From assembly GCF_023169965.1 (NCBI RefSeq), contig NZ_AP025592.1, forward strand, positions 2,356,001-2,420,000: 64,000 nucleotides of DNA. Reading direction: 5' to 3'. Shown here piece after piece: positions 11,549 to 55,205 of this stretch; position 1 is the stretch's first letter, and the number at the start of each line of letters is the position of its first letter. Both the position numbers and the translations under genes were made by a program. The notes below the pieces were generated by a model. That model was not told the DNA's origin, did not search any database, and worked only from the letters and a program-made list of their open reading frames with translations. This DNA is from Anaeromyxobacter paludicola. GTDB taxonomy: Bacteria > Myxococcota > Myxococcia > Myxococcales > Anaeromyxobacteraceae.

Positions 11549-11654
11549 CGCGCCCCCCTCCCTCGCGGCGGCATGCGTCGCCGCCCGCCCCTGCTCATGT
11601 GCGGCGCGCGGCCGCAGCGCCAGCGGGAGAGTCGGGAGGCCGCGGGGAGCTCCT

Positions 11655-11758
11655 GGCCGCCCCTCCCCCGCCCTCCCCGCCCGAGCGGGGAGGGAGTGCA
11701 GCGGGTGACTCGGGGTTCCCCTCTCCCTCGGAGCGGAGGAGGCGGTGAGACGCGGGGC
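11655..11758. repeat. REP-like palindromic element, copy A (intergenic)
   Basis: The left part matches the other elements of this window: GCCCCTCCCC, then a stem with CCCTCCCCGC at 11671-11680, loop CCGA, and GCGGGGAGGG at 11685-11694. About 43 bp are nearly identical to copy B at 30974. The right half (11719-11758) is a degenerate second stem ending in GGGGCC. The element lies between a lipoprotein gene and a convergent stop, and could also act as a transcription terminator. Confidence 0.7.
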
Positions 11759-30293: not shown

Positions 30294-30971
30294 ATGACCG
30301 AGCCCACCCCCGCGCGCCCCGACCGGTGGGCCATCCTCTGCGACTTCGACGGCACCGCCGTCATGGAGGACATCGGCGACCGGGTGGCCATCCGCTTCGC
30401 CGGCCACGACCTCTGGCGCCGCGAGTGCGACGCCTACCTGGCCGGCGCGTTCAGCTTCTCCGCGCTCCTCGGCCGGATCTTCGAGCCCATCACCGCGAGC
30501 GCCGAGGAGATCGCCGCCTTCGCCCGCCAGGTGGCCGTGCTGCGGCCCGGCTTCGAGCGCTTCGTCGCCGCGGCGCGCGACGCCGGGCGGCCCTTCATCG
30601 TCTGCTCGGCCGGGCTCGACGTCTACATCGGCCCGGTGCTGGAGCGGCTCGCCCCCGAGCTGCGGGAGTACCTGAAGCTCCGCTCCAACCACGCCACCTG
30701 CTCGCCGGAGGGGATGAAGATCTCCTTCCACGCCGGCTTCGAGGGGTGCGGGCGCTGCGGCTTCTGCAAGGGCGCGGTGGCGCGGGCGCTCCAGGCGGAG
30801 GGCTACCGGGTGGTGCTCTGCGGCGACGGCACCGCCGATCGCTGCGCCGCGGCCGCCGCCGACCTCGTGTTCGCGCGCGGGAAGCTGGTGCGGTACTGCG
30901 GCGCGGAGAGGATCCCCTGCATCCCCTTCGAGACGTTCGACGAGGTGCTGGCGCGGTTCCCGCCGGGCTGA
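30294..30971 (+). CDS. MtnX-like HAD-IB phosphatase
   Basis: A 225-residue HAD phosphatase. The N-terminus has ILCDFDGTAVMEDIGD (nucleophile and general-acid Asp), then VCSAGLDVYIGPVL, and VVLCGDGTADRCAA (GDGxxD acidic motif). A Cys-rich insert, GCGRCGFCKG, follows FEGC. The pattern matches MtnX/SerB-related HAD-IB enzymes (2-hydroxy-3-keto-5-methylthiopentenyl-1-phosphate phosphatase or relatives); no other methionine-salvage gene is present, so the substrate is unsure. It is the last gene of the plus-strand block and faces tamA. Confidence 0.85.
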   Translation: MTEPTPARPDRWAILCDFDGTAVMEDIGDRVAIRFAGHDLWRRECDAYLAGAFSFSALLGRIFEPITASAEEIAAFARQVAVLRPGFERFVAAARDAGRPFIVCSAGLDVYIGPVLERLAPELREYLKLRSNHATCSPEGMKISFHAGFEGCGRCGFCKGAVARALQAEGYRVVLCGDGTADRCAAAAADLVFARGKLVRYCGAERIPCIPFETFDEVLARFPPG

Positions 30972-30973
30972 CT

Positions 30974-31090
30974 GGTCGCCCCTCCCCAGCCCTCCCCGCC
31001 CGAGCGGGGAGGGAGCGCAGCGCAGCAGCAGGCGCGGTGATCGCAGGAGGGGGCCCCGCGAAGCGGGGGAGGGGCGCAGCCCCTCGGGCC
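30974..31090. repeat. REP-like palindromic element, copy B (intergenic)
   Basis: GCCCCTCCCC, then a stem CCCTCCCCGC (30990-30999), loop CCGA, GCGGGGAGGG (31004-31013), nearly the same as copy A. A second stem, CCCCGC/GCGGGG, lies near 31054-31068. It fills most of the gap between convergent genes (stop 30971 and stop 31188). A perfect 12-bp palindrome GCTTCGCGAAGC follows at 31097-31108. Confidence 0.7.
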
Positions 31091-39177: not shown

Positions 39178-42099
39178 CTACACGTATCCGATTTTCTTGC
39201 GAGGTCCGGGCCGGCCGGCGGCCGCGGCCACCGGGGTGGGCTCCGGCTCGGCGGGCGGCTCCGGCGGAGGCGGCGCCGCGGGGGCGGGCCGGGTCGCGGC
39301 GGGGGCCGGGGGGGCGCTCGGCGCGGCGGGGCCGCCGACGAGCGGAGCCGGGGGGCGGCCGGGGCCGCCGCCGAGGCGGGCGACCACCCCCGCCACCTCG
39401 CGATAGCGCGGGTCGATCCGGACGATCTTCTGCAGGTAGAAGAGGGCCGCCTGCGGGTCGCCGGCCCCCTCGTAGGCGAGGCCGAGCTCGTAGTGGAGCG
39501 CCTTGGCCTGCTCCACCCCGACGCCGTCGGAGCCGAGCGCGCGCCGGAAGGCGTCCGCCGCCTGCAGGGGCGCGCCCTGCGCCATGCGGCAGAGGCCGAT
39601 CATGTTGAGGCAGTCGAGCTCGGGGTGGCCCCCGGCGGCGAGGGCGACCTCGAACTCCTGGACGGCGTCGTCGAGGAGCCCCATCTCCTTGTAGGCGATG
39701 CCGAGGTCGTAGTGGGTCGCGCCGTCCTCGGGGCGGACCGTCTGCTCGACGCCCTTCTTGAACTGGGAGAAGACGTCGTCCACCGAGTACTGGAAGTCGC
39801 CCGGGGACGGCGGTGCCGGAGGGTCCTCGGCGAGCTCGGAGGCGAGCTCCTTGCCGAGGTCGAAGGTGTCGTCGCCCGAGACCGCCAGCGGGGCGACGGC
39901 GTGCGGGGCGAGCTCGGAGGGCGGGGCGGCGGCGGGCGGCGCCTCCGGGGCGGCCGGCGCTTCCGGCTGCTCGGCGCCGGCCGCGGCGAGGGCGGCGAGC
40001 CGCGCGGCGACCTCCGGGTCGCCGGGGTGCGCGCTCGCGAGCTGCTCGAGGAGCTCGCGGGCCTCCTCGAGGAGCCCTTGCTGGATGAAGAAGTCGAGCT
40101 CGCCGAGGGCCTCGGGGTCGGGGGCGGCGAAGGCTCCCGGGGCCTGGCCATCCAGCGGGGCGCTCGTGGCGGCCCCTCCCCTGCCCTCCCCGCCCGGCGG
40201 GGAGGGAGCGGCTTCGAGGCGGCCGGGCGCGGAGGAGATGGGCGCAGCGGGGCCGGCCGCGGAGGAGATGGGCGCAGCGAGGCCGGGCGCGGCAGGGCCG
40301 CCCGCCCGGGGGCCGGGCGCAGCGGCGGCGGCGCCGTCTCCCTCCCCCGCTCCGCGGGGGAGGGTCGGGGAGGGGGCCGGCCCGGCCGCGGGGGCCGCGA
40401 CGGCGAGCACGTCCACCGTGACCTCGGCCACGTCGGCGGCCGGCTCGCGGGACGGGGCGCTCGCGCCGGCGCGCGCCGGCGCGGCCCCGGCCGTCGCCGC
40501 GCCGTAAGGCGGCTCGTCGTCCGGGACGACCTCCTGCCCCTCCTCGGCGGCCATCGAGAGCGCGAGGGCGTCCTCGTCCACCGGCTCGATGTCCTCCTCG
40601 CCGACCACCAGCGCCTCGCCGTCGTCGAACGCGACGCGCTCCTCGCCCCCGCCCTCGAACGCGACGGTCTCGCCGCCGCCCTCGAACGCGACCACCTCCT
40701 CGCCGCCACCCTCGAAGGCGACGACCTCCTCGCCTCCCGCGGGCGTTGCGGGCGGGGTCGCCGGGCCGCAGGCGGCCTCGAGCTCCGGGAGCTCGGGGTG
40801 CCCGGGCGCGAGCTCGCGCAGGCGCGCCAGGGCGGCCTCGGCCTCGAGCGGGCGGCCCTTCGCGAGGTGACCGCGCACCGCGAGCGCCCCCTCGCGCGCC
40901 GCCGAGGCCGGGTCGCCGGCGCGGACGTGGATCTCCCGCGCCCGCTCGTGGGCCTCGGCGTGGCCCGGGTCGAGCGCGAGCACCTTGTTGACGTGCTCGA
41001 GCGCCCGGGCGGTGAGGCCGTACTTCAGGTAGACGTCGAGCTCGGTGAGCAGCCGCGGGATGGCGTCCACGCCCGGCGCCGCGGGGCCGGGCTGCGCCGC
41101 CGAGGCCGGAGCGGGGGCGGCGCTCGGCGGGGCGGCGGCCGGGGCCGGCGCCGGGGTCGCGCTCGCCGGCGGCCAGGCCGGGGCCCGGGCCGGCTCGGGC
41201 GCGCGGCGCACGCCGGCCCCCTCCTGCGCCTCGGCGTCGTCGGGCGCGAGCTCGAGCACCTTGCGGAAGGTGGCGCGGGCGTCCTCGGCGCGGCCCCGCT
41301 CCGCGTAGACGTGGGCGAGCTCCTTGTAGACCGAGAGCGTCTTCGAGAGCTGCCCGAGATCGCGGAACGCCTGCGCCAGCAGCGTGAGCGTCTCCACGTC
41401 CTTCGGGTCGGCCTTGAAGCAGAGCTGCAGCTTCGCGAGGGCGCGCTTGGTGTCGCCGCGCGCGAGGTAGACGTTGGCGAGCTCGCGGGTGAGCTGGAGG
41501 TCCTGCGGCGCGAGCGAGGCGACCCGCTCGGCGACCTTGAGGTACTCGTCCACCCGCGCCGTCTTCTTGAGCGCGGCGGCGGCGCGCCGGAACTGCTCCA
41601 GGGCCGGCCCCGGCTGGCCGCCGCGCACGTAGAGCTCGCCGAGCTTCACGGCGGTGGCGACGTTGTCGGGATCGAGCTCCGCCATGCGGCGGAGCGCGTC
41701 CATCACCTTGGCCTCGTCCCCCGCCCGCTCCCAGGACTGCGCCAGCGCGTGCATCTGCCCCATCGCGTCGGAGAGGAGGCCGAGCTGCTGGTAGAGCGCG
41801 GCGAGCTTCTCCGGGACGCGCGGGTCGTCGGGGGTGAGCCGGGCGATCTGCTTGTAGACCGCGACCGCCTTGAGCGCGAAGCCCTGCTCGCCGTACGCCT
41901 GCGCGCAGAGGTGGAAAGTCTCGGCGGCGCCGGAGAGGTCGTTCTTCTTCTGCTGGGTCTCGCCGATCTTCAGCCGGACGCGGACGTCCTTCGGATCCTC
42001 GGAGAGGATCTTCTCGTAGAGCTTGATCGCCTTGTCGTACTGCCCCTTCTGGGCGTACTTGCTCGCCTCTGCGACGATCTTGTTCTTGTCGAGGGCCAA
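39178..42099 (-). CDS. Large TPR protein with repeated acidic motif and an in-frame REPIN-like insert
   Basis: A 973-residue protein. Residues 1-300 are tandem TPR units (KGQYDKAIKLYEKILSEDPKDVRVR and following), then a second TPR block near 340-440 and another near 815-910. Between them is a low-complexity region. It holds four tandem VAFEGGGEE-type repeats (nucleotides about 40624-40735) and, at residues about 575-643, the product of an inserted palindromic element. The C-terminus is Pro/Ala-rich. It looks like a scaffold; similar proteins are frequent in myxobacteria. The start is TTG at 42099, with the frame conserved (ALDKNKIVAEASKYAQKG). No closely placed ribosome-binding site is seen, and a candidate promoter is nearly on top of the start. 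Confidence 0.85.
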   Translation of the reverse strand: MALDKNKIVAEASKYAQKGQYDKAIKLYEKILSEDPKDVRVRLKIGETQQKKNDLSGAAETFHLCAQAYGEQGFALKAVAVYKQIARLTPDDPRVPEKLAALYQQLGLLSDAMGQMHALAQSWERAGDEAKVMDALRRMAELDPDNVATAVKLGELYVRGGQPGPALEQFRRAAAALKKTARVDEYLKVAERVASLAPQDLQLTRELANVYLARGDTKRALAKLQLCFKADPKDVETLTLLAQAFRDLGQLSKTLSVYKELAHVYAERGRAEDARATFRKVLELAPDDAEAQEGAGVRRAPEPARAPAWPPASATPAPAPAAAPPSAAPAPASAAQPGPAAPGVDAIPRLLTELDVYLKYGLTARALEHVNKVLALDPGHAEAHERAREIHVRAGDPASAAREGALAVRGHLAKGRPLEAEAALARLRELAPGHPELPELEAACGPATPPATPAGGEEVVAFEGGGEEVVAFEGGGETVAFEGGGEERVAFDDGEALVVGEEDIEPVDEDALALSMAAEEGQEVVPDDEPPYGAATAGAAPARAGASAPSREPAADVAEVTVDVLAVAAPAAGPAPSPTLPRGAGEGDGAAAAAPGPRAGGPAAPGLAAPISSAAGPAAPISSAPGRLEAAPSPPGGEGRGGAATSAPLDGQAPGAFAAPDPEALGELDFFIQQGLLEEARELLEQLASAHPGDPEVAARLAALAAAGAEQPEAPAAPEAPPAAAPPSELAPHAVAPLAVSGDDTFDLGKELASELAEDPPAPPSPGDFQYSVDDVFSQFKKGVEQTVRPEDGATHYDLGIAYKEMGLLDDAVQEFEVALAAGGHPELDCLNMIGLCRMAQGAPLQAADAFRRALGSDGVGVEQAKALHYELGLAYEGAGDPQAALFYLQKIVRIDPRYREVAGVVARLGGGPGRPPAPLVGGPAAPSAPPAPAATRPAPAAPPPPEPPAEPEPTPVAAAAGRPGPRKKIGYV
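40171..40378. repeat. REPIN-like element, copy C, in frame inside the TPR gene
   Basis: Two REP-type stems lie in opposite orientation at the ends of 208 bp. Left: GGCCCCTCCCC then CCCTCCCCGCC (40184-40194) and GGCGGGGAGGG (40196-40206). Right: CCCTCCCCCGC (40340-40350) and GCGGGGGAGGG (40354-40364), followed by TCGGGGAGGGGGCC. Between them is a tandem 30-bp repeat (40221-40280). The TPR reading frame passes through without a stop. Confidence 0.78.
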
Positions 42100-54110: not shown

Positions 54111-55205
54111 TCAGCGGAAGAGGCCGAGCGCCGGGACGAGCCGCGACAGGGGCTGGGAGAGGTAGAGCCACTCGAACGCGGCGAGCACCAAGAACGGGCC
54201 GAAGGGGACCGCGTTCTTGGGAGGCACCCAGTCGGCGTCGGGGTCGACCGCGTCGGGCTCGGCGTCGGGCTCGGCCCCGTCCCCGACCCTCCCCCGCTCC
54301 GCGGGAGGGGGGAAGAGCGGCTCATCCCCGCCGGGCAGCGGAGCCTCGCTGGTCAGTGGAGCTTCCCTCTCACAGCCGGGCGGGGACGCCGCGACGGCGT
54401 CGCCGGCAGGCGGGCCGTGAAGCTCCCCCTCCCCGCCGGGCGGGGAGGGCTGGGGAGGGGCCGCCAGCGCGCCCTCGCCGCCCGCCGCCTCGCGCGGCTT
54501 CGGCCCCGGCTGCCCCTTGCCGAGCGCGATGAGCGCGAGCCCGACCACCGAGCCCTGCAGCGACGCGAGCAGCACGACGGGCAGGAGCGCGGCGAGCCCG
54601 TGCCACGCGCCGAGCCCCGCGAGCAGCCAGACGTCGCCGAAGCCCATCGCCTCCTTGTGGAACACCTTCTCCCCGATCACCGACACCGCCCCGAAGGCGA
54701 CGAAGCCGGCGGCCGCGCCCATCGCCGCCGAGCGGAACGACGGCGCCGCCGAGAGCCCCAGGCCCGCCGCGGCGAGCCCGAGGAGGATGAGCGGCCAGGT
54801 GAGCGCGTTCGGCAGGAGCCAGGTGTCGAGGTCGATGAAGGCGAGCGAGAGGAGCACCGCGGCGTAGGCGAACTCGGCGGCGGCCTCGGCCGAGAGCCCG
54901 TGGCGGTAGAAGGCGAGCCAGGCGAGGCCGGCCCCGAGCGCCTCCACGACCGGGTAGCGGATCGAGATCGGCGCGCGGCAGCGGCGGCAGCGGGCCCGCA
55001 GGAGGAGCCACGACAGCACCGGCACGTTGTCGTACCAGGCGATGCCGGCGCCGCAGCGCGGGCAGCGGGAGCGGGGGCGGACGATCGACTCGCCGGCCGG
55101 CACGCGGGCGATCACCACGTTGAGGAAGCTGCCCACCACGGCGCCGAGGGCGACGACCCACAGCGCGGCGAGGAGCTCGGCGATCTGTCCTTCTTCGATG
55201 GGCAC
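54111..55205 (-). CDS. pilD: Prepilin peptidase PilD with an inserted repeat-encoded segment
   Basis: A 364-residue aspartyl prepilin peptidase and N-methylase. The N-terminal GSFLNVVIARVP is followed by the Cys quartet (Cys48, 51, 73, 76) of the zinc-binding methylase part. Catalytic Asp125 is in FIDLDTWLLP and Asp191 in GFGDVWLL. About eight helices. A normal enzyme would pass from GKGQPGPKP directly to the VPFGPFLVLA motif. Here about 64 residues (about 248-311) encoded by a REPIN-like element lie between, probably in a cytoplasmic loop. Both catalytic sites are intact, so activity may be kept. Confidence 0.94.
   Translation of the reverse strand: MPIEEGQIAELLAALWVVALGAVVGSFLNVVIARVPAGESIVRPRSRCPRCGAGIAWYDNVPVLSWLLLRARCRRCRAPISIRYPVVEALGAGLAWLAFYRHGLSAEAAAEFAYAAVLLSLAFIDLDTWLLPNALTWPLILLGLAAAGLGLSAAPSFRSAAMGAAAGFVAFGAVSVIGEKVFHKEAMGFGDVWLLAGLGAWHGLAALLPVVLLASLQGSVVGLALIALGKGQPGPKPREAAGGEGALAAPPQPSPPGGEGELHGPPAGDAVAASPPGCEREAPLTSEAPLPGGDEPLFPPPAERGRVGDGAEPDAEPDAVDPDADWVPPKNAVPFGPFLVLAAFEWLYLSQPLSRLVPALGLFR
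54273..54462. repeat. REPIN-like element, copy D, in frame inside pilD
   Basis: Two inverted REP-type stems bound 190 bp. Left: GGCCCCGTCCCCGA then CCCTCCCCCGC (54287-54297), loop TCC, an imperfect partner to 54312. Right: CCCTCCCCGCC (54427-54437) and GGCGGGGAGGG (54439-54449), followed by CTGGGGAGGGGCC. The inner 115 bp differ from copy C. No stop arises in the pilD frame. Confidence 0.78.

Follow-up and report, generated by a model that had tools for sequence, protein, structure and literature searches.

A small palindromic element recurs hundreds of times in the genome of Anaeromyxobacter paludicola, and a 211-bp block within the gene of a TPR protein is very probably one of its copies. 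This copy of a genus-specific, non-autonomous, REPIN-like mobile element appears to have been inserted in a linker of the protein and retained there. Complete elements have two unlike ends, termed here the left end (LE) and the right end (RE). Positions are those of the window, i.e., the whole 64,000-nt stretch of DNA that was analysed, unless genome positions are specified.

Results

TPR families (Pfam) match the N- and C-terminal parts of the product of the TPR gene (Table 1). The first-pass annotation had placed a block of 208 bp at 40171-40378, bounded by two stems of one REP-type sequence. A block does lie there, and the pair defined by our profiles runs from 40167 to 40377 (211 bp). The stems carry outward tags and face each other as an inverted pair at 40184-40206 (CCCTCCCCGCCCGGCGGGGAGGG) and 40340-40364 (CCCTCCCCCGCTCCGCGGGGGAGGG); however, they are not two copies of one sequence, as LE and RE are different palindromes. 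Translation on the minus strand confirms that no stop interrupts the frame, and the element supplies about residues 575-644 of the 973-aa protein, in agreement with the ~69 added residues claimed earlier. The tandem 30-bp unit is also real (40221-40250 and 40251-40280, with a weaker third). The element is long for its family, partly because its spacer holds this duplicated unit. Tandem duplications of ~30 bp occur in the spacers of several elements (window 40221-40280; genome 2985079 and 3556501) and may be the source of some long length outliers. Similarity to other copies extends, more weakly, for ~10 bp past either end of 40167-40377, so the insertion points are only approximate. In the AlphaFold2 model, residues 515-656 show pLDDT values below 50 and lie between helical repeats; the insert falls within this stretch, which is predicted to be disordered.

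Table 1. Genes and palindromic elements located in the 64,000-nt window
Feature	Position	Strand	Evidence
TPR protein gene with element in frame (973 aa, TTG start)	39178-42099	-	ORF and translation; orthologs across the family
Complete LE-RE palindromic element, 211 bp	40167-40377	+	LE/RE profile matches, canonical order
LE: outward tag CCCCTCCCC and stem-loop	40167-40209	+	LE profile, 41.2 bits
RE: stem-loop and outward tag GGGGAGGGGG	40337-40377	+	RE profile, 30.7 bits
Two head-to-tail 30-bp spacer units, peptide AAPISSAxGP	40221-40280	+	Sequence, translation
Prepilin peptidase (A24) gene with second in-frame element	54111-55205	-	Pfam PF06750 and PF01478; orthologs
Second complete LE-RE element, in frame	54275-54467	-	LE/RE profiles; absent from congener (G001)
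LE copy outside high-scoring coding sequence, with a degenerate RE-like palindrome after it	11653-11698	+	LE profile
LE copy directly downstream of phosphatase-like gene (30294-30971)	30972-31017	+	LE profile

The recurrence of the ends at three other loci of the window was borne out by the LE/RE profiles (Table 1). One of these loci had not been recognised as a complete pair in frame in a gene; it is placed in the linker ahead of the last hydrophobic segment of a prepilin peptidase. The stem pattern CCCTCCCCN2-9GGGGAGGG has five matches in the window and none in 100 dinucleotide shuffles. An Rfam search of the window gave no match.

Across the 4.59-Mb genome, the same pattern occurs 119 times, compared with nine occurrences of a reversed control pattern. 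Counts of the strict LE motif are 75 in A. paludicola and 39 in the single other genome from this genus (hereafter the congener), which is 80% complete. Among 22 other genomes of the family, it is absent from 21 and present once in the remaining one; the family of elements was therefore amplified within this genus. Relatives were found by name among Anaeromyxobacter species and myxococcal metagenome bins.

Profiles were built for both end types and searched on both strands of 1.10 Mb of the genome, comprising the known sites with their flanks plus a contiguous 0.81 Mb. The LE consensus is CTGGCCGCCCCTCCCCNGCCCTCCCCGCCCG(A)GCGGGGAGGGAGTGC and the RE consensus is CTTCCCCTCTCCCGCGGAGCGGGGGAGGGACAGGGAGGGGGCGG; the two are unlike in stem, loop, and tag spacing. 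The search returned 173 ends (93 LE and 80 RE), forming 56 LE-RE pairs of 87 to 273 bp, with a mode near 125 bp and the tags outward. Only five same-strand neighbours stood in the opposite order. A genome search with the stems had been suggested by the first-pass annotation; they prove to belong to a high-copy family. Folded as single-stranded DNA, the tags are predicted to pair and the two stems to form hairpins; the fold energy is only a little better than that of shuffled sequence (z of -1.5) and is unexceptional for the composition. The core LE and RE consensus sequences, as read off, are free of stop codons in all six frames. GTAG or CGTC showed no consistent occurrence at the element ends among the 56 pairs. 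The elements have imperfect inverted ends, and no target-site duplication was recognised by eye at the empty and filled sites described below. Length modulo 3 was compared between intragenic and other elements, with 7 of 10 intragenic pairs parsable.

Could the block simply be native Pro/Ala/Gly-rich linker coding sequence, with palindromes that arose by chance from extreme GC content? The window is 74.6% GC, and orthologs from other genera have long Pro/Ala-rich linkers at the same place, as this explanation would expect. Against it, the ~45-bp ends match profiles derived from dozens of unrelated and intergenic copies, no shuffle yields the stem, and relatives in the family with comparable GC content are essentially devoid of the strict LE motif. 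A native linker is therefore highly improbable. Chance palindromes from high GC were ruled out by the shuffles, the genome control pattern, and the profile matches.

Elements were assigned to reading frames with a codon model trained on the same genome, which separates coding frames well. Under strict thresholds, 12 of the 117 sampled elements are in frame on both flanks; frame inspection extends this to 18 of 117 through the visual addition of elements that missed the threshold on one flank. In the contiguous, unbiased 0.81 Mb, the strict rule places 5 of 48 elements in frame as against 50% of random places, i.e., genes are avoided about five-fold. The family is predominantly extragenic, with roughly 85-90% of elements outside genes. 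Hosts of in-frame copies include an AddA/UvrD-like helicase, a uracil-DNA glycosylase, a double ABC ATPase, an AMP-binding enzyme, an NtrY-like histidine kinase, a BatA-type protein, a DUF4175 protein, and the prepilin peptidase of the window (54111-55205). The in-frame copies, in 18 ORFs with coding flanks, are placed between or beside Pfam domains of single proteins. For example, the element lies exactly between the lipoyl and E3-binding domains in a 2-oxoacid dehydrogenase E2, between Hpt and P2 in CheA, and between the two ABC domains in the double ABC protein.

In-frame elements favour Pro/Ala/Gly/Glu-rich linkers. For 16 in-frame copies, with 20 residues taken on each side, the fraction of these four residues in the flanks is 0.52 versus 0.36 at random coding places, and that of hydrophobic residues is 0.21 versus 0.32; 5000 random draws of coding places included no sample as extreme as this. 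The copies occur in both orientations and in several frames, with inserts of up to ~90 residues. When LE is read in the sense direction, most in-frame copies of this small sample use one frame, giving LAAPPxPSPP; the Arg-rich peptides encoded by the other frames may be the reason. At genome 2041548-2041656, an in-frame element links a glycosyltransferase and a GNAT-domain stretch in one ORF and may have fused two genes.

Comparison of filled and empty sites bears directly on insertion. In the histidine kinase, 16 orthologs from other genera continue across the site with no large gap, and their flanks are conserved, i.e., the site is empty. In the two species of the genus, an LE-containing insert occupies the site, unlike in length and residues and in frame in each; by homology, the site is the loop between two dimerisation helices. 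In the prepilin peptidase, the element is absent from 16 of 16 aligned orthologs, the congener among them. The prepilin peptidase of a genome from another genus (G019) has a different palindrome, CCCTCTCCCCCGCTCCCGCGGGGGAGAGGG, in frame in the same linker, and its sister genome (G018) lacks CCCTCTCCCCCGCTCCCGCGGGGGAGAGGG there; this linker may therefore be a repeated insertion site. One 12-kb stretch was compared with the congener. Both species have the elements of the BatA and DUF4175 genes, with different interiors and frames that stay open in both. One more pair is complete in A. paludicola and represented in the congener by its LE alone. Entire elements of the congener are missing from A. 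paludicola; a 0.3-kb cluster and one LE occur in the congener alone. Such shared-but-changed, partial, and one-species elements indicate turnover of elements while the host frames are kept.

At the sequence level, insertion can thus be seen directly in other genes, e.g., that of the histidine kinase. Aligning TPR orthologs had been proposed as a check on the block itself. The orthologs from other genera have no stems, but their linkers are Pro/Ala-rich and unalignable, and the congener contig ends before the element position. For these reasons, we infer the insertion into the TPR gene by analogy rather than see it directly. The earlier proposal of an inserted, in-frame REPIN-like repeat is supported in that the family exists and empty sites occur elsewhere. 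Neither of the results that the first-pass annotation had named as refuting was obtained: the stems recur genome-wide, and the orthologs do not all carry the segment as a conserved peptide encoded by varied DNA.

For the histidine kinase, BatA, and DUF4175 genes, the insertion has been retained in both species, and several in-frame LE copies share the LAAPPxPSPP reading. These observations would fit an element that has been adopted, its peptides or mRNA hairpins serving in domain spacing, translation control, or mRNA stability. Such a role is unlikely. The inserts differ strongly in residues and length between the species while their flanks are conserved, the host proteins are unrelated, and in-frame copies fall about five-fold below random placement.

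No RAYT was found beside the elements, and no transposase gene flanks them. The A. paludicola genome has three distant Y1_Tnp genes, with no LE or RE within 1.5 kb; none was found in the congener genome, which is incomplete as stated above. Furthermore, the presence of Y1_Tnp does not track that of the repeats across 24 genomes. A RAYT-linked family was rejected on these grounds, i.e., three Y1_Tnp genes without adjacent repeats and no co-occurrence over the 24 genomes. Similar Y1_Tnp-like genes with an SNHYHLV motif are present at genome 2651244 and 3968371, where elements are not flanking. In a search of the sampled 1.1 Mb for autonomous LE-gene-RE copies with ends no more than 4 kb apart, only host-like genes were found in between.

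The missing linked transposase, together with the tandem-duplicated look of some neighbouring copies, could mean that the family owes its spread to recombination or gene conversion among copies plus local duplication, not to transposition. We give this only a small chance, since the empty sites in unrelated genes require that a defined block be inserted at new places. Recombination between copies may nevertheless add to turnover. For the transposition that we favour, the likeliest agent, at about an even chance, is a Y1/HUH (TnpA-REP-like) enzyme working in trans on a folded single strand, as the analogy with TnpA-REP suggests.

Discussion

The REPINs of Pseudomonas fluorescens consist of two inverted REPs around a less conserved spacer, reach high copy number, have like ends, and are linked to a flanked RAYT (PMC3116915). 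The family described here shares with them the inverted pair around a less conserved spacer, the high copy number, a hairpin predicted for the single strand, and the lineage-specific distribution. In contrast to REPINs, its ends are two different palindromes and no RAYT is flanked by the repeats (PMC3116915). Moreover, only 14 of 1,067 core 16-mers overlap genes in SBW25 (PMC3116915), whereas ~10% of the elements are intragenic here.

GTAG/CGTC-tagged REPs have been described in frame in genes of Opitutus terrae, Thauera, Rickettsia conorii, and Xanthomonas (PMC3733652). These intragenic REPs are sometimes dimers, their hosts include the repair genes recBCD and uvr, and linkers and loops were proposed as tolerated sites; Anaeromyxobacter and Myxococcus are not mentioned there (PMC3733652). 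Our elements are likewise palindromes, arranged as outward-tagged (HH-type) heterodimers and read in frame in unrelated proteins, and they too have a repair-gene host, the AddA/UvrD-like helicase (PMC3733652). They differ in having neither tag, the outer tag being CCCCTCCCC, and in giving inserts of up to ~90 residues. The Rickettsia RPE are the classic translated palindromes, mobile and present in many unrelated proteins (PMC10969869). The present elements, apparently mobile palindromes in frame within many unrelated protein genes, are similar in this respect, but by description they differ in being very GC-rich, ~85-90% extragenic, and found in both orientations and several frames (PMC10969869). 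In-frame palindromes in Rickettsia, Opitutus, and Thauera mean that the phenomenon is already known. As far as the literature examined shows, what is new is the family itself, its unlike ends, the missing partner RAYT, and the comparison of empty and filled sites in Myxococcota.

In the mechanism that we propose, the unit would comprise an LE hairpin, a short variable spacer, and an RE hairpin, with outward complementary tags. One such copy would have entered the TPR gene in the part that encodes a disordered linker. It could have been retained because it added no stop, preserved the frame, and brought extra residues that are harmless there. The inserted peptide would then be neutral rather than useful.

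A broader proposition is that a REPIN-like element with unlike ends spreads without a RAYT and is free of stops on both strands, which allows it to stay within genes, and that the genus thereby keeps remodelling the linkers of its core proteins. This we regard as a tentative possibility. If true, linkers would have been remodelled in the dimerisation loop of a histidine kinase, in CheA, in a 2-oxoacid dehydrogenase E2, and in a prepilin peptidase. Since empty and filled sites exist in neighbouring species, the effects of insertion on protein linkers are directly testable. A REP-like family without a visible partner transposase also bears on how such repeats move. In A. paludicola, a mobile repeat would supply a bacterium with new protein sequence.
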